From: Glutamicibacter sp. PS
GTDB taxonomy: Bacteria > Actinomycetota > Actinomycetes > Actinomycetales > Micrococcaceae
Direction: 5' to 3'
DNA: 64,000 nucleotides
NCBI GenBank assembly: GCA_031317595.1
Contig: JANCMB010000001.1
Coordinates: 2,421,610-2,485,609 of the forward strand
Shown here: positions 22,912 through 38,484 of the stretch, in pieces
Layout of the letters: every line of letters begins with the position of its first letter
Numbering within the stretch: position 1 is the first letter of the stretch
Position numbers and translations under genes: made by a program
Notes under the pieces: model-generated
Databases searched by the model: none
What the model was told of the DNA's origin: nothing
What the model saw: the letters and a program-made list of their open reading frames with translations, nothing else

Positions 22912-24330
22912 ATGCGATACCAGCTACCCGAGGCGCTGAATTCCTTCACGCGCACCGCTACACAATTTGTCGCGCTCGAACCCGATGCGGTTTTCGCCGT
23001 TGTCGGGGACCTGGCGCGCACCGGTGATTGGATGAAGAGCTTCAATGGCTTCGTGGTCCATGACGCCGGACATCTGGCCGGCAACAAGGTCGACCTCCTT
23101 CCCCCGGGACGCCTTTTTGGTCCACTCCACACCGCGACCGCCCCGTCCGGGTCGATTACCCGGCGCAACGAGCGCGAACGATTAGTGGAATTTACCCAGC
23201 CGCAGCCCGGCGGTCGAATGATCTTACGCTGGCAGGTGGCCGAGGAGTCCGGTGGAGCACGGTTATCCTTCACCGTGACGCTGTCCGGTCCAGGAACCAG
23301 CGTCTTCAAACTCACCGTGGCCAACGCCCTGTGCCGCGACTTCTCCGTGGCGGCCGCACGACTCTATCGGCTGTTGCCCTCCGCGGCTCGAACCTCAACC
23401 GGTGGCGAACACGTGGTCATTGCCGGGGGTCGTGGTTTCCTCGGGCGCAATCTTGCGGCCGATCTCCTCTGCCGCGGACACCAGGTTCGAGTACTCACCC
23501 GAAGCCTTGAGGAACACTTCCCAGCCGAGCAACTTCCCTGGGACGGTGCCCACTTAGGTCCGTGGGCTCATGCGCTCCACGGTGGAGTACACCTCATAAA
23601 TCTCGCCGGTGCCCGCGTGGATGTGGCCAATACGGCGGAGAATCTCGAACTTTTGCGCAACTCGCGGGTGCGCGCCACACACATTCTGGCCGAGGCAGCC
23701 GCTGCCGCGGAGCAGCCCTTGCGCACCTGGGTGCAGGCCAGCACCACCGCGATCTTCGGCGACGGGAAACAAAACCGCTACACCGAGCGGTCGACCCCAC
23801 CGCGCACGGCGGCCGAAGGTGCCCTCGACGAGATGACCGAAGTGGCCCGCGATTGGGAAGCGGCCTTCAACGATGCACGGATCAACGCCGAATCAAAGCA
23901 TATTGTGCGTACCTCGCTGGTGATGCACCCCGATGCCCCGCTACTGACCCCGTTGCAGACCCTAGTGCACACCGGAATGGGAGGTGCGCTCGGTAGCGGA
24001 GAACAGTGGATGAGTTGGATCAGCCTGCCAGACTGGCTGCGTCTTGTTCGCGCCCTGCTTGGGTTGGAGACTACGCACATCGAGGCCGAGCTGATTCATG
24101 CCGCCGCACCGCAACCGGTACGCAACGAGCAACTCATGCGGGTACTGCGCGAAGCCGCCGGATTGCCAGGACTTCCGGTCCCCGCCGCTCTCGCCACGCT
24201 AGGGGCCAAGGTTTTGGGCACCAACCCGCGTATCGCCCTCACCGGGCGTTACGTCACCAGTGAAGTGCTTACCCCCTCCGATTTCGCCGATACCACCTTG
24301 GCACAGGCGCTCGGGCTTGCGGCGAATTAG
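22912..24330 (+). CDS. TIGR01777-type NAD-dependent epimerase with N-terminal SRPBCC domain
   Basis: 472 residues from the ATG at 22912, preceded by GAGGGA; ATGs further upstream lack a ribosome binding site. Residues about 5-165 form an SRPBCC-like lipid/aromatic-binding domain. From about 172 a Rossmann-fold SDR begins with VVIAGGRGFLGRNLAADLL; QASTTAIFGDG and RTSLVMHPDAPLL follow the yfcH/DUF1731 pattern, and PVPAALATLGAKVLG near the C-terminus is the DUF1731 region. The fusion of cyclase-like and SDR domains is common in actinobacteria; the substrate is unknown. Its stop overlaps the convergent Lrp gene by four bases (TTAG). Confidence 0.85.
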   Translation: MRYQLPEALNSFTRTATQFVALEPDAVFAVVGDLARTGDWMKSFNGFVVHDAGHLAGNKVDLLPPGRLFGPLHTATAPSGSITRRNERERLVEFTQPQPGGRMILRWQVAEESGGARLSFTVTLSGPGTSVFKLTVANALCRDFSVAAARLYRLLPSAARTSTGGEHVVIAGGRGFLGRNLAADLLCRGHQVRVLTRSLEEHFPAEQLPWDGAHLGPWAHALHGGVHLINLAGARVDVANTAENLELLRNSRVRATHILAEAAAAAEQPLRTWVQASTTAIFGDGKQNRYTERSTPPRTAAEGALDEMTEVARDWEAAFNDARINAESKHIVRTSLVMHPDAPLLTPLQTLVHTGMGGALGSGEQWMSWISLPDWLRLVRALLGLETTHIEAELIHAAAPQPVRNEQLMRVLREAAGLPGLPVPAALATLGAKVLGTNPRIALTGRYVTSEVLTPSDFADTTLAQALGLAAN

Positions 24331-25280
24331 GCCAGTTTCCGACCACCGCGTTTGCGAGCCTGAACCACCATCGAGGTCTTCACCTGAGCGAGTTGATCGC
24401 CCCAGGTGGCGTGCGAAATGAAGCGATAGAGATCCGCCTGCGAACGCACCGTGACGTCGACGATGAGCTGGCAGTCGCCGGCCACGGCCGCGGCATAGCG
24501 CACCTCAGGGAGCGTGGCCAAGCGTTGCCCGAGTTCCTCGAGGTGGCGTGGTGAGGTCTGCACCCACAACAACGCCTCAACGGGGCGTTCCAGTAAGGCT
24601 GGTTCAACCAGCGCGCGGATACTCAGGTATTCGCTACGCAATAGCCACTCGAGGCGCCGTGAAACGGTGGATTCGCCGAGTTTGACCTGACGGGCAATGG
24701 ATTCAATGCTCGCCCGTCCATCCTGTGCGAGTGCCGCGATAATTTGTTCGTCCGTGCTGGAGAGCTCGTCGAAATCGTGCAAGGTGCGCGGGTCTCCGGT
24801 AAGTTCCGGAGCTAAGGCTTGGCGTTGAGCCTCGGTGAGATTCCCGGCCGTCCAGCCACGAATAGTTTTGAAGAACTTGAGGACCGGATAGGCCACATAC
24901 TGCCTCACCCCGGGGGTGGCCGGTAGCTGCAGGGTCAGCGTTTCGGTGATATCCCCGTCGTAACGCAGCTCGGCCACCACATCATTTTGACCGGTGACCA
25001 TGTAGCTGTAGCTTGTGTCGGCGCGTTGGGCTAGCGCCTCACAGGCTAACTGGGCTGTGCCTGGGGCGCATTTAAAGGCCACGATCATCGCAGAGGAGTG
25101 GTGCTGCAAGGCCGCGACGATCACCTTGCGATCGGCAAGCAGACTCGAGCCGTAGCGGGCCACGGTACGTTCGGGTTCACCGAGTACCGTGGCAATCTTG
25201 CGCCAGGTGGCCCGGCCATCGACCTGTAGCGCCGCAATAATATTGCGTTGCAGGTCATTCAGTTCCGGCTCCCGGGACAT
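24327..25280 (-). CDS. Tandem-domain Lrp/AsnC transcriptional regulator
   Basis: 317 residues from the ATG at 25280, which has AAAGG eight bases upstream; a GTG at 25289 would fall on that ribosome binding site. Two Lrp modules in one chain: helix-turn-helix at about 5-55 (LNDLQRNIIAALQVDGRATWRKIA) with a RAM/AsnC domain to about 145, then a second at about 172-315 (STDEQIIAALAQDGRASIESIA). Single-chain pseudodimers of this kind are common in actinobacteria. It lies 28 bases after the carboxyltransferase gene and probably ends that operon, so it is the likely regulator sensing an amino acid or acyl compound from the pathway. Confidence 0.9.
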   Translation of the reverse strand: MSREPELNDLQRNIIAALQVDGRATWRKIATVLGEPERTVARYGSSLLADRKVIVAALQHHSSAMIVAFKCAPGTAQLACEALAQRADTSYSYMVTGQNDVVAELRYDGDITETLTLQLPATPGVRQYVAYPVLKFFKTIRGWTAGNLTEAQRQALAPELTGDPRTLHDFDELSSTDEQIIAALAQDGRASIESIARQVKLGESTVSRRLEWLLRSEYLSIRALVEPALLERPVEALLWVQTSPRHLEELGQRLATLPEVRYAAAVAGDCQLIVDVTVRSQADLYRFISHATWGDQLAQVKTSMVVQARKRGGRKLA

Positions 25281-25308
25281 GCGTTTCACCTTTCACCACC
25301 ACAGCGTG

Positions 25309-26829
25309 CTATCGCACCGAAGCATACTTCAGTGCACGCGCCGGGGCCCGCATTGCCGCAGGGGTCGCTGCGGCATCGGCCAACGCTCCGGCCAGCGCGG
25401 CCCCGATGCGCTGCGCGAAGTGGCGTGGGTAGCGGGTGGCCGGTTCCGGCTCGGCAATAATGCGTTCGACGATGCCGGCCCGGCGCAGGGCGAAGGCATC
25501 CACTTTCTGTGCATGCGCCAGTTCGGCGGCATGCTCGGTGTCGCGGTAAAGGATCGCGCTGGCCCCTTCCGGCGGTAACGGGCAGAGCCAAGCGTGTTCG
25601 GCCGCGAGGGTGATATCGGCCGGAAGCACCGCCAAGGCGCCGCCGCCGGTTCCCTGCCCGAGGAGCAGGGACACGCTGGGTGTCTCGAGTCCGATCAGTG
25701 CGCTGATCGAACGGGCAATCTGCCCGGCAAGCCCTTCTTCCTCGGCTTGCTTGGATAGCGCCGCACCCTCGGTGTCAATCACGGTCAGCAGCGGTAGTCC
25801 TAACCCGCTGGCTAGTTCGGCCCCGCGGCGAGCCTCACGCAGGAAGGCGGCACCCAAGGGTGCGGCGGTGCACGGGTCACGATCCTGCGCCACCAACACA
25901 CAAGGTTGCCCATCGAAGCGGGCGAGCCCCAAATACATCCGGGCATCGTGCTTTCCCTGCCCGGTGCCCGAGAGTTGCAAGGCGTCGCTGGCGGCGTACT
26001 TGATGACATGGCGCACGCCCGGTCGTCGCGGATGGCGGGTGTGTCCGACGCTGCGCCACACGGCGTCCTGGTCCAGCTCCCGGTCCACGGAGTCGTCAAT
26101 CAGCAGGTCCGCCGGGTCCTGCCCGCTGCGGGCCGTGGCCGGGGCGAGAATGCGTAGGATTCCGCGCACGATCTCGGCCAACTGCTCGACCGGGAGCACC
26201 GCGTCGATGAGCCCCTGTGCGTAGAGATTCTCGGCCTGCTGCACACCGCTCGGGAATGGCTCATGGTAGATGGTTTCGTACACGCGCGGGCCGAGGAAGC
26301 CCAGCAACGCCCCGGGCTGGGCCACGGTGATATGCCCCAGGGTGCCCCAGGAGGCCATCGCCCCGCCGGTGGTCGGATCCCGCAGATACACGAGGTAGGG
26401 CAACGAGGCCTGCTTATGGGCACGCACGGCCGCGCAGATACGCACCATCGCGACAAAGGCCGGGGTGCCCTCCTGCATCCGGGTGCCACCCGAGGCCGGC
26501 GAGGCCAGCACCGGCAGACCCAGCGCAGTGGCCTTGTGCAATGCCGCGACGATCCGATCCGCGGCGGCGTTGCCGATCGAACCTGCTAAGAAGTCAAAGA
26601 CGCTGAGCACGACGGCTACCTGCTGCCCGGCGATACGCCCGGTGCCGGTGATGACCGATTCGTCGTGCCCGCTTTTGGCGGCGGCCGCAGCCAGCTGGCT
26701 GGCGTACTGACTATCCGCGTAGGAATAATCCGCGGGAGTATCCCAGCTTTCAAAGGACCCGGGGTCGAGCACCGCGTCGATCATGTCCCGGGCGCTAATC
26801 CGCTGGATACGCTGGCTGGTTGCGTTCAT
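25309..26829 (-). CDS. Fused AccD-AccA type carboxyltransferase
   Basis: 506 residues. The N-terminal half (about 60-235) is AccD-like: ITGTGRIAGQQVAVV, SPASGGTRMQEGTPAF, DPTTGGAMASWGTLG, then a PGALLGFLGPRVYET loop. The C-terminal half (about 300-480) is AccA-like, with LPLLTVIDTEGA and GQGTGGGALAV. It would transfer carboxyl from carboxybiotin to an acyl-CoA. The zinc ribbon that normally precedes AccD (four cysteines) is absent, and no biotin carboxylase or biotin carrier gene is in the window, so it must borrow these or do something else, such as decarboxylation. Its start overlaps the CoA-transferase stop (ATGA). Confidence 0.85.
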   Translation of the reverse strand: MNATSQRIQRISARDMIDAVLDPGSFESWDTPADYSYADSQYASQLAAAAAKSGHDESVITGTGRIAGQQVAVVLSVFDFLAGSIGNAAADRIVAALHKATALGLPVLASPASGGTRMQEGTPAFVAMVRICAAVRAHKQASLPYLVYLRDPTTGGAMASWGTLGHITVAQPGALLGFLGPRVYETIYHEPFPSGVQQAENLYAQGLIDAVLPVEQLAEIVRGILRILAPATARSGQDPADLLIDDSVDRELDQDAVWRSVGHTRHPRRPGVRHVIKYAASDALQLSGTGQGKHDARMYLGLARFDGQPCVLVAQDRDPCTAAPLGAAFLREARRGAELASGLGLPLLTVIDTEGAALSKQAEEEGLAGQIARSISALIGLETPSVSLLLGQGTGGGALAVLPADITLAAEHAWLCPLPPEGASAILYRDTEHAAELAHAQKVDAFALRRAGIVERIIAEPEPATRYPRHFAQRIGAALAGALADAAATPAAMRAPARALKYASVR

Positions 26830-28037
26830 GCTTGCTCCCCCGGCCGGTCCCCGACCGCCGCGGTGTCAGCGAGCCACTGTTGGATCTGGGCGGCATGTTC
26901 GTTCAGCCCGGGAGGTGGCGTGTGCTCACGACGAGTTTGCTCTTCGCCGTCGCGGAAGAAACGCAGTGGTGGGCCCGGCAGCTGCACCTGTCCGAGAACC
27001 GGGTGGGCCACATCCAGCAGCAATCCCTGGCTGCGGACCTGATCCCAGGCGTAGACCTCATCGAGGCTACGCACGATTCCGGCGGGAATGCCCGCGGCGC
27101 CCAGCCGTTCGAGCAGCGTCGCGGTATCGAGGGTCATGAAGACCGCTTCCACCGCCTGAATCAGCTCAGCACGCCGTGCTACGCGGTCGGCGTTGGTTTC
27201 GAACCCGGCGGTAGGGATCTGGAATTCGGTGGCGAAGGCCGCCCACAGTTTTTCGCTACCCACCGAGATCTGCACGAACCCATCGGCGCTGCGGAATAGT
27301 CCGTAGGGTGCGATGGAGGGGTGATGATTACCCTGCGCGGCCGGGACTTCACCGGCCACCGTGGCCCGCGTGCCTTGGAAGGCGTGGACACCGACAACGG
27401 CGGCCAGCAGCGAGGTGCGCACCACCTGCCCGCGCCCGCTGCGTTCGCGCTCGAGTAGCGCGGCGAGCACACCGAAGGCACCATACATGCCGGCCAGCAG
27501 GTCGGCGATGGGTACGCCCACGCGTTGCGGGTCCTCGGGTGCGGAACCGGTCAGTGACATCAAACCGGCCTCACCTTGCAAGATCTGGTCGTAACCACTT
27601 CGCCAGGCCTCGGGCCCGTCGTGGCCAAAGCCGCTGATGGAGAGCACCACGAGGCTCGGGTTCAGCTCGGTGAGGCGTTGCTCGGTGAAGCCGAGCCGGT
27701 CCAACACCCCGGGACGGAAGTTCTCCAACAGTACGTCGGCGCGGCGCACCAACTCGGCCAACTGCTCGCTGCCCTCGGGTGACTTCAGGTCGAGGGTGAT
27801 CGAACGCTTATTGCGGTTACAGGACATGAAGTAGGTTGAGATGCGCTCATCCTCGGGCCCGACGAAGGGCGGACCCCAACCTCGGGTGTCATCGCCGGTG
27901 GCCGATTCGACCTTGATGACATCGGCGCCGAGGTCTCCGAGCATCATCCCGGCATGCGGTCCGGCCAGCGCCCGGGTCAGATCGATGACGGTGTACCCGC
28001 TCAGTGGCCCGCTGTTGTTGGTCTTCTCCGGGTTCAT
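26826..28037 (-). CDS. CaiB/BaiF family (class III) CoA-transferase
   Basis: 403 residues. Opens with the family motif VIDLTRALAGPHAGMMLGDLGADVIKVE; catalytic Asp at about 150 (SGYDQILQGEAGLMSLTG). Moves CoA from an acyl-CoA donor to a free carboxylic acid, thus activating the acid that an amidase would release. It is coupled by four-base ATGA overlaps to the amidase upstream and the carboxyltransferase downstream, so the three should be made together. Substrate not readable. Confidence 0.92.
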   Translation of the reverse strand: MNPEKTNNSGPLSGYTVIDLTRALAGPHAGMMLGDLGADVIKVESATGDDTRGWGPPFVGPEDERISTYFMSCNRNKRSITLDLKSPEGSEQLAELVRRADVLLENFRPGVLDRLGFTEQRLTELNPSLVVLSISGFGHDGPEAWRSGYDQILQGEAGLMSLTGSAPEDPQRVGVPIADLLAGMYGAFGVLAALLERERSGRGQVVRTSLLAAVVGVHAFQGTRATVAGEVPAAQGNHHPSIAPYGLFRSADGFVQISVGSEKLWAAFATEFQIPTAGFETNADRVARRAELIQAVEAVFMTLDTATLLERLGAAGIPAGIVRSLDEVYAWDQVRSQGLLLDVAHPVLGQVQLPGPPLRFFRDGEEQTRREHTPPPGLNEHAAQIQQWLADTAAVGDRPGEQA

Positions 28038-29464
28038 TGGGCGGCCTCCGTATCGAGCTGGGCCAGCGCCGGGGCACGATCGGCAAAGTGAGTGGCTTCT
28101 TCATAACCGGCGGCGGCATTGAGCAGTTCGACATCGCGGTAGTGGTTTGCGGCCAACTGCCAGCCCACCGGCAAACCGGAGGCCGTGAAACCACCGGGCA
28201 TGGCGATCACCGGCAGGCTCGTGGCCGAGAGCAGGCAGGCCGAGCGCATCCAATCCAGATAAGTCTCGGACGGAACTCCGGCAACCTGCTCGGGATAACG
28301 CCATGTCGCATCGAAGGGCAACACCTGGGCGGCCGGTGAGAGGAAGAAATCGAAGCGTTCGAAGTAGCTGTCCACCGCCTCACCCAACCGGGTGCGAGCC
28401 GCGGCGGCGCTGATCATGGCATCGGCATCCAATGCCAGCCCCTTGTTGACGTTCCAAATCACCTCGGGCTTGACCAGCTCCGGATGCTCGCGCACCAAGC
28501 CGCCCAACCCGGTGGCAAAGTCGAAGGCGCGGGTGACCGAGAAAACCTCGTCGGCATCGCTGAAATCGATGGTGGCTTCCTCAAGGATGGCCCCGGCTTG
28601 CTCGAAGACGGCCAGTTGGCCACGCAGCACCTCGATGACTTCCGGCTCCACCGGGACGTTGAGCCCGAAGTCGAAGCAGTACCCGATCCGCGCACCCTTG
28701 AGTTCGGGGTGAAGTGACGCAAAATCTTGACCACTGAGGGTATTGCCAGTGTGGATCTTGTCGTTACCGGCGCTAGCTTGCATGAACAGTGCCACGTCGG
28801 CGACCGTGCGGGCCATAGGGCCGGAGCGAGCCAACCAGGCATGTGCATTGCCCGCCGAGCCTAACGGGATCACGCCATAGGAGGGGCGGAAGCCGAAGAC
28901 GTTACAGAAACTACCGGGGATGCGCAGCGAACCGCCCATGTCCGAGCCATCGCCTAGCGGCTGAATACGTGCGGCAATGGCGGCCGCCACACCTCCGGAG
29001 GAACCGCCGGCCGACTTGTCGGTGGCGTAAGGGTTGGTGGTCGTGCCGAATACCTCGTTGAAGGTGTGCGATCCGGCGCCGAACTCCGGAACGTTGGTTT
29101 TACCCGTGCGGATAGCGCCCGCCGCCTTGAGTCGGGCGATCTGCAGGTCATCGTGTTCCGGCACGTTCTCGGCAAAGGCGGGAGAGCCCTGAGTACTGCG
29201 CAGACCCGCGGTGTTGAAGGTGTCCTTGTGGGTCATGGGTAGCCCGTGGAGGAGACCGAGTTCTGCGCCCTGCGCCTGAGCCTCATCGGCTGCGGTAGCG
29301 GCCTCGGCGGCACGCTCGAAGTCCGTGATGACCACAGCGTTGATCGATTCGTTGACCTTCTGGATCTGGTCAATATGGCTGGCCAATGCTTCTCGGGCCG
29401 AAAGCTGGCCGGAGCGAATCAGCGAGGTTATTTCCACTGCGCTTAGCGCCTGAAGCTGGGACAC
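28034..29464 (-). CDS. Amidase, amidase-signature family
   Basis: 476 residues from a GTG at 29464 preceded by AGGAGG; a longer frame reaching 29839 crosses the divergent gene and has no family character. Ser-cisSer-Lys triad: Lys80 (MTHKDTF), Ser155 in SAGGSSGG and nucleophile Ser179 in GSDMGGSLRIPGSFC. Hydrolyses an amide to acid and ammonia or amine. First gene of the leftward operon amidase, CoA-transferase, carboxyltransferase, Lrp regulator. The GTG lies close (four bases) to the ribosome binding site, so expression could be modest. Confidence 0.93.
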   Translation of the reverse strand: MSQLQALSAVEITSLIRSGQLSAREALASHIDQIQKVNESINAVVITDFERAAEAATAADEAQAQGAELGLLHGLPMTHKDTFNTAGLRSTQGSPAFAENVPEHDDLQIARLKAAGAIRTGKTNVPEFGAGSHTFNEVFGTTTNPYATDKSAGGSSGGVAAAIAARIQPLGDGSDMGGSLRIPGSFCNVFGFRPSYGVIPLGSAGNAHAWLARSGPMARTVADVALFMQASAGNDKIHTGNTLSGQDFASLHPELKGARIGYCFDFGLNVPVEPEVIEVLRGQLAVFEQAGAILEEATIDFSDADEVFSVTRAFDFATGLGGLVREHPELVKPEVIWNVNKGLALDADAMISAAAARTRLGEAVDSYFERFDFFLSPAAQVLPFDATWRYPEQVAGVPSETYLDWMRSACLLSATSLPVIAMPGGFTASGLPVGWQLAANHYRDVELLNAAAGYEEATHFADRAPALAQLDTEAAQ

Positions 29465-29629
29465 GATGCCTCCTGTGGTCTGTGGGTTGTCCCACCATCG
29501 TGAACCCGAGTGACCACAAATGGAATAAGAAGCGAGGAAAACGCTCTTTTTGGTGGATCTAGCCAATTTTTTGTCCAGAACCACCATTCCTTGCCGTTTT
29601 CCCGCGGATGAATCATCGTAGATACACGT

Positions 29630-29645
29630 AGTGATCCATCTCACA
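29630..29645 (+). promoter_or_regulatory. CRP/GlxR-like binding site
   Basis: AGTGA-TCCATC-TCACA matches the CRP/GlxR form TGTGA-N6-TCACA at nine of ten conserved bases. It is 38 bases upstream of the ATG at 29683, in the divergent region with the amidase operon, so it could couple both directions to carbon status. The remaining divergent region (29465-29629) has AT-rich promoter-like sequence but no clear box. Confidence 0.5.
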
Positions 29646-29682
29646 CCGCAACCATCGATCCTCACGTTCAGGAGCATCCGAC

Positions 29683-30429
29683 ATGCAGACGCCATCGATA
29701 CTGGCGCAGGCCAACCCGTCTTCCACAGACATCTGGGCCATCGCCAACTCCCCCTTCCTCTGGATCTGCGCGCTGGGCGTTTTCGCCACCATCTTCGTTC
29801 AGACCGTCCTCTACGTGCGGGCCGCCAAGGCGGCAGCACCGCATGTCGATATGCCGCTTCGTGAGGTCAAGGAATCCTTCCGCGCCGGCGCAGTGGCATC
29901 CATCGGCCCGTCGCTCGCCGTGGTGCTGGTAGCCATCGCACTGCTAGCCCTGTTCGGTACCCCAGCAGTCCTGGTACGCATCGGCTTGATTGGTTCGGCC
30001 TCCACGGAGACCGCTTCGGCGAGTATCGCCGCCCAATCCATGGGTTCAACCCTGGGCGGCGACGACTACACACAGCAGGTTTTCGCGGTCGCCTTCATGG
30101 CCATGACACTCTCGGGCGGCATGTGGATGCTGGCCACGCTGATTCTGACCCCAATCCTCAAGCGCGGCGGCAAGTCGCTGGCCAAGCGCAACCCGGCCGC
30201 CATGGCATTGATTCCCACTGCGGCCCTGCTCGGCGCCTTCAGCATGCTCACCGTGGCCGAGATGCCTAAGTCCCAGATCCACCTGATCCTGGTGCTGACC
30301 TCGGCCGGTGTGATGGCCCTGTGCCTACTACTGGCCAAGATCCTGCACGCTCACTGGCTCAAGGAATGGGCCCTGGGTTTTGCCATCGTCATTTCCATCA
30401 CCGTCGGCTACCTGCTGCACACGGCCTAA
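29683..30429 (+). CDS. DUF5058 family membrane protein, probable transporter subunit
   Basis: 248 residues with six or seven helices, roughly at 17-37, 63-85, 125-150, 165-185, 195-212 and 222-245. I recognise it as the DUF5058 family by its fold and by the company it keeps: a second small membrane protein directly downstream and then an M20 amidohydrolase, an arrangement seen in other bacteria. GPSLAVVLVAIALLALFGTP and IGSASTETASASIAAQS are the conserved central parts. AGGAG precedes the ATG. Likely one half of a two-component carrier for the substrate of the neighbouring hydrolases; function is inferred. Confidence 0.75.
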   Translation: MQTPSILAQANPSSTDIWAIANSPFLWICALGVFATIFVQTVLYVRAAKAAAPHVDMPLREVKESFRAGAVASIGPSLAVVLVAIALLALFGTPAVLVRIGLIGSASTETASASIAAQSMGSTLGGDDYTQQVFAVAFMAMTLSGGMWMLATLILTPILKRGGKSLAKRNPAAMALIPTAALLGAFSMLTVAEMPKSQIHLILVLTSAGVMALCLLLAKILHAHWLKEWALGFAIVISITVGYLLHTA

Positions 30430-30447
30430 GCACCACGGGAGATCACC

Positions 30448-31197
30448 ATGAACACCCACACACCAGTCACCAGCAATTCCGACGCCTCAATGGCACGCTT
30501 CGAAAAGCAGACCACGCGCTACGGTTCGGCCACCATGGCCGCCGGACTTCTCTTCTCATTACTGGGCCCGCTCTACCTCTTCTTCTTCACCGACCTAGAA
30601 CTCACCGGGGATATGATCTGGGTGGCCTTCTTGGCCGTGGCCGCGACCTTCGGCGTCTTCTGGGTCGTTGAACCGCTAACCTACTTCCCGATTCTCGGCT
30701 CGGCGGCCATGTATCAGGCCTTCATGATCGGCAATATCTCCAATAAGCTGCTGCCAGCCGCGATCGTCGCCCAGTCCTCCATCAACGCCAAGCCGGGCAC
30801 CAAGCGCGGAGATATCGCCGCGGTGATGGCCATCTGTGGTGCCGCGACCGTTCACCTAAGTAGCCTGTTGATCTTCGTCGGCCTCTTTGGGTCCTGGCTT
30901 GTGGCCCGAATCCCAATGGAGGTCATCGAGGTAGCCCGCCTGTATATCCTGCCCTCCCTGATGGGGGCGGTGCTCGTTCAAGCCATCGTGGCCATGAAGC
31001 AGCTGCGTACCACGATCGTGGCCATCGCTCTGGCACTGGTCATGTACTTCTTGATCATTCCCGTTGCCCCGTCCCTGGCCCTGTACAGCACCGCCCTGGT
31101 CGTGGTGGGATCGATCATCATCTCCTGGTTGGTCCGGGACCGTAAAGCGCACGTCGCCGAGGAGCCGGCCACCGAGAACAACATCGAGTCCAACTAG
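30448..31197 (+). CDS. Membrane protein partner of the DUF5058 protein
   Basis: 249 residues, about seven helices; GSAAMYQAFMIGNISNKLLPAA near residues 87-108 looks like a substrate-cavity loop. Members have at times been labelled small-conductance mechanosensitive channels, but no MscS beta domain is present here. It lies 18 bases after the DUF5058 gene (GGGAG ribosome binding site) and 30 bases before the amidohydrolase gene. Taken together the two proteins resemble a heteromeric secondary carrier; no experimental function is known to me. Confidence 0.7.
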   Translation: MNTHTPVTSNSDASMARFEKQTTRYGSATMAAGLLFSLLGPLYLFFFTDLELTGDMIWVAFLAVAATFGVFWVVEPLTYFPILGSAAMYQAFMIGNISNKLLPAAIVAQSSINAKPGTKRGDIAAVMAICGAATVHLSSLLIFVGLFGSWLVARIPMEVIEVARLYILPSLMGAVLVQAIVAMKQLRTTIVAIALALVMYFLIIPVAPSLALYSTALVVVGSIIISWLVRDRKAHVAEEPATENNIESN

Positions 31198-31227
31198 TTC
31201 CGCCCAGTAGCCCCAAAGGAGCCGAGC

Positions 31228-32433
31228 ATGGTCACCACCACCTTGAACGACCACCAGACAGAACGCCTACACGCCACCTACAAGCACCTGCACACACACC
31301 CGGAACTATCCATGCAGGAGCACCAGACGGCCGCCTTTATTGAGGCGAGACTGGATGAGTTGGGGCTCGAGCACTTCCGGTGCGGCGGAACCGGTGTCGT
31401 CGCGCTACAGCGTAACGGTGAGGGACCAGTGATCGCCTTCCGGGCCGACACCGACGGTTTGCCGATCGCCGAAGACACCGGGGCCGACTACTCTTCCACG
31501 GCTACCGGGAAGCTTCCCGATGGCACCGAGGTTCCGGTCATGCACGGCTGTGGGCATGATACCCATGTGGCGGCGGCGCTGGCCGCCATCGAGGCTCTCG
31601 CCGGACAGCCCAGCGCATGGGCCGGTACCATCGTGTGGATTTTCCAGCCTGGCGAAGAGACCAGTCAGGGCGCGGCGGCCATGGTCGAGGACGGTCTATG
31701 GGACCGAGCCCCACGCCCTGAGGTCGTCTTCGGGCAGCATGTTTTCCCCTTCCTCTCCGGGGCGTTGGCCTTCACCTCCGGCAATGCCATGGCCATGGCG
31801 GACTCGTTGAAACTGACTCTCTACGGCAAGCAATCCCATGGATCGCAACCGCAAGATTCGGTGGATCCGATCGTGCTGGGTTCGCACATCGTGACCCGCC
31901 TACAGAGCATCGTCTCGCGCGAGGTCTCCCCGCTGAGTAGTGCGGTGGTCACCTGCGGTAGCTTCCATGCGGGCCTGAAGGAAAACATCATTCCTGACCG
32001 AGCCGAGCTGACATTGAATGTACGCACGTTGACCCCCGAGGTGCGCCAACAGGTATTGGCCGCGATCACCCGCATCGTCAATGCGGAGGCCGCTGCTTCT
32101 GGTGCTCCGCAGCCGCTGATAGAGGAGCTCTACACGTTCCCCCAGCTGTATAACGACCCAGAGCACACCGAGGTTGTCGCCAGGGTGCTTCGCGAAGAGC
32201 TTGGCGAAGCGCAGATCCACGAGGTGCCCCCGGCCATGGGTTCGGAGGATTTCGGTGCGCTCGCTTCGGCCATTTCGGTGCCCAGCGTGTATTGGTTCTT
32301 CGGAGGCACCGCCGCCGACGATCCAGCTCCGGCGGTCAATCACTCCCCGCATTTCCTTCCCACCCTTGAGCCCACGCTAAGCACCGGCGTGCGAGCCATC
32401 CTCGGTGTCCTGGGGCACTATGTCGGGAAATAA
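31228..32433 (+). CDS. M20 family amidohydrolase (aminoacylase/hippurate hydrolase type)
   Basis: 401 residues with the dinuclear metal site of the M20D group: MHGCGHDTHVAAAL near residue 105, catalytic Glu pair in FQPGEETSQGAA near 140, histidine in EVVFGQHVFPF near 170 and the distal His in NHSPHFLP near 372. The dimerisation domain lies at about 185-300. Cleaves N-acyl amino acids or related amides in the cytosol. AAAGGAG precedes the ATG. Last gene of the rightward transporter operon; ends at a strong terminator. Confidence 0.92.
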   Translation: MVTTTLNDHQTERLHATYKHLHTHPELSMQEHQTAAFIEARLDELGLEHFRCGGTGVVALQRNGEGPVIAFRADTDGLPIAEDTGADYSSTATGKLPDGTEVPVMHGCGHDTHVAAALAAIEALAGQPSAWAGTIVWIFQPGEETSQGAAAMVEDGLWDRAPRPEVVFGQHVFPFLSGALAFTSGNAMAMADSLKLTLYGKQSHGSQPQDSVDPIVLGSHIVTRLQSIVSREVSPLSSAVVTCGSFHAGLKENIIPDRAELTLNVRTLTPEVRQQVLAAITRIVNAEAAASGAPQPLIEELYTFPQLYNDPEHTEVVARVLREELGEAQIHEVPPAMGSEDFGALASAISVPSVYWFFGGTAADDPAPAVNHSPHFLPTLEPTLSTGVRAILGVLGHYVGK

Positions 32434-34728: not shown

Positions 34729-35916
34729 ATGAACAGTGAGCAACCGGTAGCCGCCATTACGGCAGCGAACTGGCAGTTACCCGAAAACATTCGGTACAGC
34801 TTCCAGAACCTCGCCGAAGTTCTGCCCACTGTGAAGGTCTCCCGCGGCGACGACCACATCGCGAAGCTACCGCGCACCGAGATGGACCTAGGCTCGATTC
34901 AGCTACCGCGCAGCATGGGCGAGCCATCAATGACGGTGCGTGGTGTCATGAATTCCACGGATACGGATGCCTGGCTCGTAATGCAAGACGGACGGATCCT
35001 GACCGAGAAATATCTCGAGCCGATGACCGCGCTGACCGATCATCTGCTGATGAGCGTAAGCAAAACTCTTGTCGGCACCGTCGCCGGCACCTTGGTTGAT
35101 GCCGGGAAGCTCGACGTCAATGCGCCGGTCACCGACTACGTCCCGGCCCTCTCGCGCAGCGGCTACAACGGGGCCACGGTGCGTCACCTGTTAGATATGC
35201 GTTCCGGCATCAGGTACTCCGAGGAGTACTTGGATCCCACCGCCGAGGTGCGCCTGCTCGAGCAGGCCATCGGATGGGCCGAGCTCGAGGGCGATATGAA
35301 GCCCATCGGTCTCTACGACTTCCTGCTCACGCTCAAGGCCGAAGGTCCCCATGGCGGGCCCTTTGACTACCGCTCCTGTGAAACCGATGTCCTCGGCTGG
35401 GTCTGCGAGGCCGCCGGCGGAGCTCGGATGCAGCAACTGCTATCGGAGAACGTCTGGGCAAAGATCGGCGCCCAACAGGACCTGGTCATGGGTGTCGACC
35501 AATTCGACACCGGCATGTTCGACGGTGGCTTCAACTCGACGTTGCGCGACTTGGCCCGCTTTGGTCACCTGTTCATCAACAACGGTATTTCGCTCACCGG
35601 CGAGCGCGTGGTCTCGGAGGCCTGGCTGGCCGATGTCTTCACCGAGGATGAGGAACTTGTCGAGGCCTTTGCGGCCTCACCGGGAGACAACATGATGCCC
35701 GGTGGCCACTACCGCAATCAGATCTGGTTCCCCTACCCGGGCACTGGCGTCGCCCTAGCCCTGGGTATTCACGGTCAGATGATCTACATGAACCGTGCGA
35801 CCGGCATGGTCGGAGTGAAGCTCTCCTCATGGCCACTGCCGCAGGACGCGGGGAAATTATTCCCTACCATCCGGGCCTTCGACGCCATTGCCAATCATTT
35901 AGCAGATGTGGACTAG
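34729..35916 (+). CDS. NylB-like serine hydrolase (6-aminohexanoate-dimer hydrolase family)
   Basis: 395 residues with class C beta-lactamase fold and no signal peptide, hence cytosolic. It follows NylB of Arthrobacter closely in form: HLLMSVSKTLVGTVAGTLVD carries the Ser-x-x-Lys pair, YRSCETDVLGWVCE the Tyr of the catalytic triad (YCSANTD in NylB), and GIHGQMIYMNRATG with KLSSWP the C-terminal core. NylB hydrolyses the linear nylon dimer, but chromosomal relatives are esterases or amide hydrolases with unknown natural substrates. GAGGAGA precedes the ATG. It sits 82 bases after the ATP-grasp gene, across a long hairpin. Confidence 0.85.
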   Translation: MNSEQPVAAITAANWQLPENIRYSFQNLAEVLPTVKVSRGDDHIAKLPRTEMDLGSIQLPRSMGEPSMTVRGVMNSTDTDAWLVMQDGRILTEKYLEPMTALTDHLLMSVSKTLVGTVAGTLVDAGKLDVNAPVTDYVPALSRSGYNGATVRHLLDMRSGIRYSEEYLDPTAEVRLLEQAIGWAELEGDMKPIGLYDFLLTLKAEGPHGGPFDYRSCETDVLGWVCEAAGGARMQQLLSENVWAKIGAQQDLVMGVDQFDTGMFDGGFNSTLRDLARFGHLFINNGISLTGERVVSEAWLADVFTEDEELVEAFAASPGDNMMPGGHYRNQIWFPYPGTGVALALGIHGQMIYMNRATGMVGVKLSSWPLPQDAGKLFPTIRAFDAIANHLADVD

Positions 35917-35971
35917 AGGCACCCCGGCGGGGCTAATGCATTGCGGCGTAACCGACCTGGATTTAATGCGC

Positions 35972-36169
35972 GACTAATATAGTTGACGCATACATGAACC
36001 CACCAAAGCACATCTGTTTCCTATCCTTTGGACACTGGACCCCGCACCCCACCTCAGCGACCCGCTCGGCCTCCAACGTCCTGCTACAAAGTATCGATCT
36101 GGCGGTGGCGGCCGAAGAACTAGGCGCCGATGGAGCCTACTTCCGAGTCCACCATTTTGGCCGCCAGCT
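35972..36169 (+). repeat. 198-bp direct repeat, left copy
   Basis: About 94% identical (some 12 differences) to 37431-37628, at a constant offset of 1459. It covers the promoter region and first 58 codons of the luciferase-like gene. Seven of the differences are A here against G in the right copy, as expected of a copy no longer under selection and drifting towards A/T. Confidence 0.95.
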
Positions 36170-36239
36170 ACTCCAGAAAGTCGAAACTGAGGCGATCTTG
36201 CCGCTCCAAATTGGGCGGAGCATCATGTGTGACGCATAA
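35994..36239 (+). pseudogene. Truncated duplicate of the luciferase-like monooxygenase gene
   Basis: The ATG and the following 58 codons match the intact gene at 37453, including FLSFGHWTPHP and AAEELGADGAYFRVHHF; after 36169 the sequence is unrelated and the frame stops at 36239. The TATAGT box ten bases before the ATG is kept. The product would be an 81-residue fragment without the barrel and is unlikely to act. Confidence 0.9.
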
Positions 36240-37022: not shown

Positions 37023-37430
37023 TCGATAGTGCGATTGGGCACACCGGCTCTTCTGCCCATACTCACTTTCAGACTGGCACCACAGCAGGGCAAGACCACA
37101 CTAGTATTCGGCGCTTTGAGAGCATAGGCGCGGTCCTCTACATGGCATCTGACAACCCGCTCCTTCGGGGACAAGCACCGCTTGACACACTCCGCCATCC
37201 ATCACTCCTGTATAGAGAAAATCAGCCCGTGGCTCGCGACAACAGACCGATTACGACCACATTACTGCCACCGATTCGCGGCCATGGGCTCTTTAATCTT
37301 TACGACGCCCCTGAACACCCAGACGAGTCCGCTGGCACTGCATATCGTGTCGCGATTACGACCATCAACACGATCTCGAATCACATCGAGGCATCCGCCA
37401 GCTACCTGACTGACTCGGGAATAAGTCCCT
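37023..37430. other. Intergenic part of the insert, no gene recognised
   Basis: Short frames are present but none has a ribosome binding site or recognisable protein. No inverted repeats at the insert ends, no transposase or integrase remnant visible. Confidence 0.45.
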
Positions 37431-37628
37431 GACCGATATAGTTGACGCGTACATGAACTCACCCAAGCGCATCGGTTTCCTGTCCTTTGGACACTGGACC
37501 CCGCACCCCACCTCAGCGACCCGCTCGGCCTCCGACGTCCTGCTGCAAAGTATCGATCTGGCGGTGGCGGCCGAAGAACTAGGCGCCGATGGGGCCTACT
37601 TCCGAGTCCACCATTTTGCCCGCCAGCT
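37431..37628 (+). repeat. 198-bp direct repeat, right copy
   Basis: Right-hand copy of the duplication described at 35972; this copy belongs to the intact gene. The similarity begins at GAC (37431) just before the TATAGT box and ends within codon 59. Confidence 0.95.
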
Positions 37629-38484
37629 CGGTTCTCCATTCCCGCTGCTCTCCGCGGTTGGTGCGAAAACCGACCGCATTGAAATTGGCACCGGCGTCAT
37701 TGACATGCGCTACGTCAATCCCATGACCTTCGCCGAAGACGCCGGAGCCTCGGACCTGATCTCCGCAGGTCGCCTGCAGCTCGGTGTTTCGCGAGGTTCG
37801 CCCGAACAGGTCATAGACGGCTGGAAGCACTTCGGGCAGGCCCCCTCCGCCGGACAGAGCGACGCCGATATGGCACGTCAGATCACCACGCAGGCTTTGG
37901 AGCTGATCTCCGGGAAAAAGTTTGCTCAGCCCAACCCGCGGCCGATGTTCCCAAATCCCCCGGGGCTTCTGGGGCTCGAACCTCAGTCGCCGGGTCTGCG
38001 CGAGCGCATCTGGTGGGGAGCCGGTTCGGATGCCACCGCGATCTGGGCGGCCCAGCATGGCATGAACCTCATGTCTTCGACCCTGAAGAACGACGAGTCC
38101 GGTGAACCGCTGCATATCCAGCAGCGTAAGCAGATCGAGGCATTCCGTGCCGAGTGGGCCAAACACGATCATGGCTTCACCCCGCGCGTTTCCGTCTCAC
38201 GTTCCATCATGCCGATCGTCAACGATCTGGACCGCCGGTACTTCCTAGGCAGTGGGGAACGACGCGATCAATTCGGAAATATCGACGAAACCACCCGTGC
38301 CGTTTTCGGACGTAGTTACGCCGATGAACCCGACGCCCTGATCGAACAGCTTGCCGCCGACGAAGCCATCGCCGCGGCCGACACGATCCTGCTCACCGTG
38401 CCGAACCAACTAGGCGTCGATTACAACGCGCATTTGTTGCATTCGATCCTCACCCACGTGGCCCCGGGTCTCGGCTGGCGCTAG
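37453..38484 (+). CDS. LLM class (luciferase-like) flavin-dependent monooxygenase
   Basis: 343 residues, a full (beta/alpha)8 barrel of the bacterial luciferase family: FLSFGHWTP at strand 1, AYFRVHHFARQLGSPFPLLSAVG with the conserved HHF, IEIGTGVIDMRYVNP, and GRLQLGVSRGSPEQV. Uses FMNH2 or F420 to oxidise a small organic molecule; the substrate is unknown. TATAGT lies ten bases before the ATG and no ribosome binding site is present, so the mRNA leader is very short. Its 5' end exists twice; this copy is intact. A nitroreductase gene converges from the right. Confidence 0.92.
   Translation: MNSPKRIGFLSFGHWTPHPTSATRSASDVLLQSIDLAVAAEELGADGAYFRVHHFARQLGSPFPLLSAVGAKTDRIEIGTGVIDMRYVNPMTFAEDAGASDLISAGRLQLGVSRGSPEQVIDGWKHFGQAPSAGQSDADMARQITTQALELISGKKFAQPNPRPMFPNPPGLLGLEPQSPGLRERIWWGAGSDATAIWAAQHGMNLMSSTLKNDESGEPLHIQQRKQIEAFRAEWAKHDHGFTPRVSVSRSIMPIVNDLDRRYFLGSGERRDQFGNIDETTRAVFGRSYADEPDALIEQLAADEAIAAADTILLTVPNQLGVDYNAHLLHSILTHVAPGLGWR

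Follow-up and report, generated by a model that had tools for sequence, protein, structure and literature searches.

A divergent amide-hydrolase locus of Glutamicibacter with a putative DUF5058 carrier pair and a module that resembles an alternative malonate route

Introduction

Malonate catabolism of the Mat type involves a carrier (MatC), a GntR-type regulator, MatA and MatB, and oxalate is broken down by a formyl-CoA transferase together with an oxalyl-CoA decarboxylase. We compared these and other described systems with a locus found at positions 24327–32433 of a 64,000-nucleotide stretch of the genome of Glutamicibacter sp. PS, a soil-type bacterium (contig JANCMB010000001.1; the whole stretch is called the window hereafter). 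The locus consists of seven open reading frames (ORFs) in two tight divergent units. One unit encodes a DUF5058 membrane protein, a second membrane protein and an M20-type amidohydrolase; the other encodes an amidase, a CaiB-type CoA-transferase, a fused carboxyltransferase and a tandem Lrp regulator. An earlier note had proposed that these genes import an amide, hydrolyse it, activate the released acid as a CoA ester and transfer a carboxyl group. Families, order and spacing match its description, and the seven genes and their two units are borne out by ORF calls and by Pfam and NCBIfam searches. Its interpretation was largely right in spirit and is partly supported here. Two findings are, in our view, the most valuable: an undescribed, putative two-protein carrier that is linked with amide hydrolases in two phyla, and a CaiB-carboxyltransferase module that has the look of a further route for malonate.

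None of the described systems matches the locus throughout. As in the Mat system, relatives of the CaiB-carboxyltransferase pair adjoin a MatC-type carrier and a divergent GntR/FCD regulator. However, malonyl-CoA decarboxylase (PF05292) was found in 0 of the 18 genomes with the pair (a test in which no control was positive), CaiB and the fused carboxyltransferase stand beside MatC instead, and the window has no MatC relative. The oxalate route shares the logic of a class III CoA-transferase and a decarboxylase acting on a dicarboxylate, but the partner enzyme in the window has the carboxyltransferase fold and its dicarboxylate substrate is a prediction. Malonate decarboxylase (MdcA with MdcD-MdcE) may be similar in plan, since a thiol carrier would be moved to malonate before decarboxylation by a carboxyltransferase fold; here the thiol would be CoA and not a special acyl carrier protein, the transferase is of class III and not MdcA-type, and the carboxyltransferase is nearer to AccD/AccA. 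On the import side, the small Escherichia coli membrane proteins YjiH and YjiG are likewise encoded next to a hydrolase of peptide or amide bonds, the dipeptidase IadA, yet no sequence relation to our carrier pair was found. Finally, the N-acyl amino acid-cleaving aminoacylase N-AGA/AgaA (PDB 6SLF) has zinc ligands, a catalytic Glu and substrate-carboxylate residues in common with the TIGR01891-type M20 enzyme of the window, and differs at Asn191 and Asp301, which are Ser193 and Tyr302 in the window.

DUF5058 and its partner form a constant pair

The DUF5058 protein (29683–30429, plus strand, 248 aa) matches PF16481 with 223.6 bits against a cut-off of 28.2 and would be the first subunit of the carrier. 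The presumptive second subunit (30448–31197, plus strand, 249 aa) is a membrane protein without a Pfam family that adjoins it. DUF5058 is present in 16 of the 18 genomes of the genus. For a scan across genera, with one genome per species, we analysed the best 80 of 108 DUF5058 relatives, mostly from actinobacteria. Linkage was counted in those 74 of the 80 loci whose flanks reach 4.5 kb or more on either side, using our own profiles and score thresholds that we set ourselves; the six shorter loci excluded from the counts include two that carry the CaiB pair (L078 and L149). Neighbouring ORFs were grouped by a codon-scored clustering that misses some genes. The partner adjoined DUF5058 in 74 of 74 scanned loci. 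In Firmicutes, 27 of 348 sampled genomes had DUF5058 above the family cut-off, and the partner lay directly 3′ of DUF5058 in 20/20 of the loci examined from these 27 (at L268 the DUF5058 ORF was under the display score, yet the Pfam match is present there).

The partner protein of the window gave no Pfam or NCBIfam match at E 0.01, and no convincing Pfam family emerged across 46 members (best E 0.0076). We found no sequence similarity between DUF5058 and the partner, and four profile comparisons of the two with E. coli YjiG/YjiH gave a best probability below 1%. AlphaFold models of both proteins are all-helical (pLDDT 86 and pTM 0.71 for DUF5058, pLDDT 80 and pTM 0.53 for the partner). The literature searched contained no mention of DUF5058, and we found no published function for the pair there; "undescribed", the word used by the earlier note for the whole system, thus holds for the carrier.

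Two genomes show unusual frames at this pair. In Arthrobacter sp. S41 (L137, L037) the DUF5058 and partner frames are both broken and the M20 and Lrp matches remain. In Nesterenkonia sp. PF2B19 (L129:10804–12879) the partner and M20 lie in one 692-aa frame; this fusion was not used as evidence because its linker resembles spacer read-through, perhaps a draft error.

Several families of amide hydrolase lie beside the putative carrier

The third gene of the carrier unit encodes an M20 aminoacylase-type amidohydrolase (31228–32433, plus strand; TIGR01891, 275 bits against a cut-off of 154), and M20 enzymes were found near DUF5058 in 68 of the 74 scanned loci. In Firmicutes, the gene after the partner encodes an M20 enzyme in 14 of 20 loci, and these enzymes fall nearest to three different subfamilies. 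It encodes a member of the amidohydrolase superfamily in two loci (L263, L265) and an aminopeptidase in one (L267), which we take to be of the M42 type. No hydrolase was recognised after the partner in three of the 20: L254 has no ORF of at least 120 aa on that strand, L261 has PGA_cap and L268 has LysR.

The amidase-signature hydrolase of the window (28034–29464, minus strand; PF01425, 309 bits; GTG start set by homology) has counterparts in 36 of the 74 scanned loci. An amidase also adjoins the carrier pair in the Firmicutes Geomicrobium, Oceanobacillus and Sinobaca, together with M20 in two of the three. The Lys80, Ser155/156 and Ser179 motifs, presumably catalytic, are invariant (6/6), and the nearest PDB entry is an aryl acylamidase (200 bits). 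Ten of the 80 loci, from Arthrobacter, Cryobacterium and Nesterenkonia (L095, L097–L101, L106, L109, L112 and L123), have another M20-type enzyme as a recurrent neighbour; the one member scanned scored 490 bits with N-carbamyl-L-glutamate amidohydrolase, against a cut-off of 520.

Thus, different hydrolase families of related chemistry adjoin one and the same pair. This is the best evidence that the carrier would import amide- or peptide-like compounds, and the repeated linkage to several hydrolase families in two phyla supports the amide import and hydrolysis proposed earlier. Judged by gene neighbourhoods, DUF5058 and its partner are best read as the two proteins of an undescribed importer, which would bring in N-acyl-amino-acid-like amides for hydrolysis in the cytosol.

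The best PDB match of the window M20 is 6SLF, an N-alpha-acyl-glutamine aminoacylase (1.2e-89; the next match is at 6e-51). In 6SLF, zinc is bound by Cys105, His107, Glu141, His168 and His370, the substrate carboxylate by Arg264 and Asn251, and the glutamine side chain, partly via water, by Asp301, Asn191, Asp340 and Glu140 (excerpts of PMC7209930). We transferred this numbering by HMMER alignment to 73 M20 proteins beside DUF5058, the window protein included. The five zinc ligands, Arg264, Asn251, Glu140 and Asp340 are kept in 73/73, whereas Asn191 and Asp301 are kept in 0/73, with Asn at the place of Asp301 in four. Because the carboxylate residues are kept and Asn191 and Asp301 are lost, the likely substrate of the window M20 is an N-acyl amino acid whose carboxylate is free, and glutamine is an unlikely side chain. 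Glutamine specificity of the M20 was rejected on these residues.

CaiB and the fused carboxyltransferase are a pair of their own

The class III (CaiB) CoA-transferase (26826–28037, minus strand; PF02515, 391 bits) matches the NCBIfam model for succinate-glutarate CoA-transferase with 308 bits, under the equivalog cut-off of 750. Its Asp179, which we take to be the catalytic residue, aligned with an Asp in 5/5 PDB chains. By NCBIfam match and PDB alignments, the named relatives of this enzyme act on dicarboxylates. The carboxyltransferase (25309–26829, minus strand) fuses an AccD-like half (PF01039, 181 bits) to an AccA-like half (PF03255, 147 bits). The N-terminal region of AccD holds a zinc ribbon; this region is absent from the fused protein, whose profile aligns to AccD chains from residue 52–65 onward. 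Scores are below the NCBIfam equivalog cut-offs both for AccD/AccA (154 vs 317 and 105 vs 319 bits) and for MdcD/MdcE (48 vs 278 and 24 vs 237 bits). The carboxyltransferase family acts on malonyl-type thioesters.

Carboxyltransferase relatives occur in 67 of 297 genomes of the order, and regions from 40 of the 67 were examined. CaiB lies directly before the carboxyltransferase in 34 of the 40 (of the six without it, one starts near a contig end). A MatC-type carrier stands beside the pair in 13 of the 40, and one GntR-type family adjoins in 12 of these 13; Pfam gave MatC_N (PF07158, 200 and 189 bits) for two of the carriers and GntR and FCD for one regulator. Within the genus, 12 of 18 genomes have the carboxyltransferase, with four copies in amide loci (972–1034 bits) and ten elsewhere (632–678 bits). 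Two genomes have both kinds and the window's genome has the amide-locus copy only. All ten copies outside the amide loci (L206–L215) lie in a GntR-MatC-CaiB-carboxyltransferase operon, a candidate alternative malonate pathway. Within the sequence examined, 14 of the 15 distinct DUF5058-linked copies (the window included, and L149 with only 4.6 kb of sequence) have no MatC relative, as if DUF5058 had taken the place of MatC there; the exception is A. mobilis.

A malonate decarboxylase beta subunit scored over its cut-off in 0 of the 18 genomes with the pair and also in 0 of 14 controls. The search used for PF05292 does detect this family in 2 of 198 genomes of the phylum. No CaiB-based malonate route is announced in the titles and abstract openings listed by searches on malonate with CaiB, MatC or CoA-transferase. 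Because a dicarboxylate carrier, relatives among dicarboxylate CoA-transferases and the carboxyltransferase converge, we infer that the pair would act on malonate or a C2-substituted malonate, which would be made a CoA ester and then decarboxylated or trans-carboxylated. The earlier proposal of CoA activation and then carboxyl transfer is thereby refined. The two genes belong together as a distinct pair that elsewhere is often tied to a MatC-type dicarboxylate carrier, and this speaks for breakdown of the malonate type rather than carboxylation of just any acid.

MdcD-MdcE is able to decarboxylate malonyl-CoA in vitro; the poor conservation of its alpha-type subunit is put down to the fact that no carboxybiotin is bound (excerpts of PMC5534430). 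The alpha half of the window protein is AccA-like (146 bits) to the same degree as the beta half is AccD-like (154 bits). This good conservation argues for a possible use of carboxybiotin, by a reversed carboxylase or a trans-carboxylase, over simple decarboxylation. AccD3 of mycobacteria presumably shares the fused architecture. In an interaction test, as excerpted, AccD3 bound no partner (PMC4347857), which may point against carboxybiotin.

Two neighbourhoods were discarded as guides to the pair. An rsmB-, his- and trpE-type neighbourhood (family f6) was rejected as functional context because it is a neutral place. The "biotin carboxylase" PRK06524 (33018–34646) was rejected as the missing carboxylase partner because the genus keeps PRK06524 with a NylB-like gene, and the DUF5058 module is found now on one side of these two, now on the other. 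PRK06524 and the ORF at 34729–35916, presumably a NylB-like hydrolase, travel together across the genus, independent of the DUF5058 module.

The locus is a core with added layers

For a survey of the genus, we mapped the window proteins on 20 regions from 15 other DUF5058-bearing genomes. With the window, 17 loci carry Lrp. Eleven are core-only, with Lrp and then DUF5058-partner-M20, and lack amidase, CaiB and carboxyltransferase (one of them has broken DUF5058 and partner frames and one a split Lrp). In two, the amidase is the only one of these three genes present and separates Lrp from DUF5058. Four have the full set, namely three loci and the window. Four more DUF5058-partner-M20 copies in the genus have no Lrp match, and their DUF5058 is 56–58% identical. 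By these arrangements, the carrier pair and hydrolase are the core of the locus, to which the amidase on the one hand and CaiB with the carboxyltransferase on the other are added as layers. We rejected one pathway of constant gene content because the three parts are gained or lost separately. The single gene set of the earlier note therefore stands in that it recurs in relatives, but not as a fixed unit, given that 11 of the 17 loci do without the block and two have only its amidase. Two loci of the survey have a layout of their own: in Arthrobacter sp. MYb229 (L074/L076) a plain and a full locus lie in tandem on one contig, about 12 kb apart, and at L023:6989–9384 the Lrp match is split into pieces about 1.4 kb apart, as if by an insert within the gene.

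Relatives of all seven genes occur together in Paeniglutamicibacter antarcticus (L078), Arthrobacter mobilis (L088), Kocuria polaris (L096), five Leucobacter loci and one genome from a different genus of the family (L153), with gene order and orientation changed in some of them. The scatter of the genes without co-occurrence that the earlier note named as refuting it is thus not what relatives show; the set recurs in several genera and therefore exceeds chance. The CaiB-carboxyltransferase pair follows M20 in Leucobacter and Kocuria polaris and follows the amidase in the window and in Paeniglutamicibacter antarcticus, and it occupies the usual place of M20 in one Arthrobacter metagenome-assembled genome. 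Among 72 loci, the carboxyltransferase was found in 11 of the 35 with an amidase and 0 of the 37 without (Fisher p 1.4e-4; L076 was recoded, its match belonging to the tandem neighbour). Because the carboxyltransferase was found only in amidase-bearing loci, it is suggestive that the amidase, rather than M20, may supply the acid.

A carboxyltransferase tree was built from 63 rows, the window and 62 different relatives with at least 85% query coverage and no stop. Its 14 DUF5058-linked rows need three changes: some group with the window in a Micrococcaceae clade, others form a Leucobacter clade, and A. mobilis falls among the rows linked to MatC. A single clade for all 14 was rejected (approximately unbiased (AU) test, p 3.9e-5), and on a quick tree so was a single origin for the 13 without A. 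mobilis (AU p 0.0085). In A. mobilis (L088:2227–7274), a whole GntR-MatC-CaiB-carboxyltransferase operon adjoins the Lrp-amidase-DUF5058 locus, perhaps a snapshot of the modules meeting. Three independent recruitments of the CaiB pair were rejected because of this operon. By the trees, the modules may have met through one recruitment or two, and one is possible.

Proposed mechanism and its alternatives

On balance, and by a narrow measure, we favour a mechanism in which the locus imports a small amide, cleaves it and routes a malonate-like acid through a CoA ester into central metabolism, under Lrp and CRP/GlxR control. DUF5058 and its partner would act as a two-subunit importer of N-acyl-amino-acid-like or other carboxylated amides, as their constant pairing and their neighbours suggest. 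In the cytosol, M20, by its family match, would cleave N-acyl amino acids whose alpha-carboxylate is free. The amidase-signature enzyme, placed likewise by family, would cut either a second bond of this kind or an amide related to the first. Where the amidase frees malonate or a close dicarboxylate, CaiB would load it with CoA, the donor being acetyl-CoA, succinyl-CoA or the like; the fused carboxyltransferase would then remove the carboxyl as CO2 or onto biotin. The net result would be acetyl-CoA formed and the CoA donor regenerated, as in Frc-Oxc for oxalate and MdcA-MdcDE for malonate. The tandem Lrp protein may sense a product, and the CRP/GlxR-type site may add catabolite control.

A bolder proposal, which we put forward tentatively, is that DUF5058 and its partner represent a new family of two-subunit importers, present in at least two phyla, that take up acylated amino acids and related amides, that CaiB and the carboxyltransferase represent a third and purely CoA-based malonate route, and that the two were joined once or perhaps twice, with the importer replacing MatC. 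If so, malonyl- or malonamoyl-type conjugates would be usable as food, and the DUF5058 family would gain a constant partner as well as a role that can be tested. For bacteria in which the usual malonyl-CoA decarboxylase was not found, the GntR-MatC-CaiB-carboxyltransferase operon would provide another way to break down malonate. If fused carboxyltransferases act without biotin, this may also bear on mycobacterial AccD3.

Several results weigh against the favoured mechanism, and they can be set beside the alternatives. Malonamidase E2 is unsupported as a relative of the amidase (65 bits vs 200 for the aryl acylamidase). The carboxyltransferase scores 146–154 bits with AccA/AccD models vs 24–48 with malonate decarboxylase subunits, so biotin-dependent carboxylation fits as well as decarboxylation. 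In the order of events of the earlier note, a monocarboxylic acid set free from the amide could be activated by CaiB, and the resulting acyl-CoA could be carboxylated by the carboxyltransferase working with the biotin carboxylase and biotin carrier of housekeeping metabolism. The nearness of both halves to AccD/AccA suits this idea, as does the well conserved alpha half, the one that would hold carboxybiotin (for the alpha half, excerpts of PMC5534430). We nevertheless consider it unlikely: the pair stands with a MatC-type dicarboxylate carrier in 13/40 relatives and in 10/10 second copies of the genus, the named CaiB relatives use dicarboxylates, and the sole "biotin carboxylase" noticed nearby, PRK06524, is placed within the genus without regard to the module.

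Further adverse points come from the assembly of the locus. The carboxyltransferase is present in 12 of the 74 scanned loci, and malonate cannot be the general substrate of the carrier because most DUF5058 loci are without the CaiB-carboxyltransferase pair. The counts that link amidase and carboxyltransferase are not independent and come down to only two independent pairs. A careful tree minus six long or doubtful rows did not reject a single origin of the remaining 12 (p 0.099), and the CaiB tree left a single origin unrejected (p 0.083). A. mobilis need not be a case of recruitment because its own complete MatC operon is kept beside the locus. It is conceivable, if improbable, that two unrelated modules adjoin, one importing and hydrolysing an amide and the other, of the malonate type, drawing its substrate from some other source. 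Either module does occur alone in many genomes, the complete A. mobilis operon merely adjoins the locus, and the trees do not firmly rule out a single recruitment. Yet the window CaiB, carboxyltransferase and amidase genes overlap by 4 bp, the pair was found only in amidase-bearing loci (11/35 vs 0/37) and in several arrangements, and MatC is absent from 14/15 DUF5058-linked copies, all of which speak for joined modules.

The carrier might also work outward or as a channel, for instance in product release, with the amide entering otherwise. The tie between carrier and hydrolases is one of neighbourhood and sequence gives no direction; among the neighbours checked, a MatC-type carrier recurs in 5 of the 80 scanned loci. 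Such a role nonetheless seems quite improbable, as several hydrolase families lie downstream, which is expected if an imported compound is the shared feature. It is very unlikely that N-acyl-glutamines of the kind that N-AGA, the odour enzyme of Corynebacterium, cleaves are the compounds used here, with DUF5058 as their missing importer: 6SLF is the best PDB match of M20 and the importer of the conjugates that it cleaves is called unknown (excerpts of PMC7209930), but Asn191 and Asp301 are kept in 0/73 M20 proteins and DUF5058 was found in 5 of 201 sampled Corynebacterium genomes, two of them known beforehand, a count that also leaves a role as general odour-precursor importer of Corynebacterium unsupported.

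Gene order, regulation and neighbouring features

On the minus strand, the order is amidase, CaiB, carboxyltransferase and Lrp, with gaps of −4, −4 and 19 bp; on the plus strand it is DUF5058, partner and M20, with gaps of 18 and 30 bp. The 4-bp overlaps suggest that amidase, CaiB and carboxyltransferase may be translationally coupled. The tandem Lrp/AsnC protein (24327–25289, minus strand, 320 aa) has two PF13404 stretches (helix-turn-helix) and one PF01037 ligand domain. Its gene is divergent from DUF5058 in core-only loci of the genus, and it is the probable regulator of the locus.

A promoter region of 218 bp (29465–29682) separates the two units. The CRP/GlxR-like site that had been reported between them is present at 29630–29645 (AGTGATCCATCTCACA). 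On its own it is weak, because GTGA-N6-TCAC occurs three times in the 64 kb against about 0.8 expected from base composition by a hand estimate. At this position, TCAC and a weaker TGAGA half are kept in 5/5 relatives aligned. The stretch aligned with five relatives also contains a dyad at 29547–29571 (TTTTTGG...CCAATTTTT). By sequence, the dyad is a candidate operator for a regulator, and the CRP/GlxR-like site is a candidate likewise.

Beyond the locus, the window holds a 211-nt direct repeat, 91% identical, at 35959–36169 and 37418–37628 (spacing 1459). Through it, the start of the ORF at 37453–38484 is copied in a short ORF at 35994–36239.

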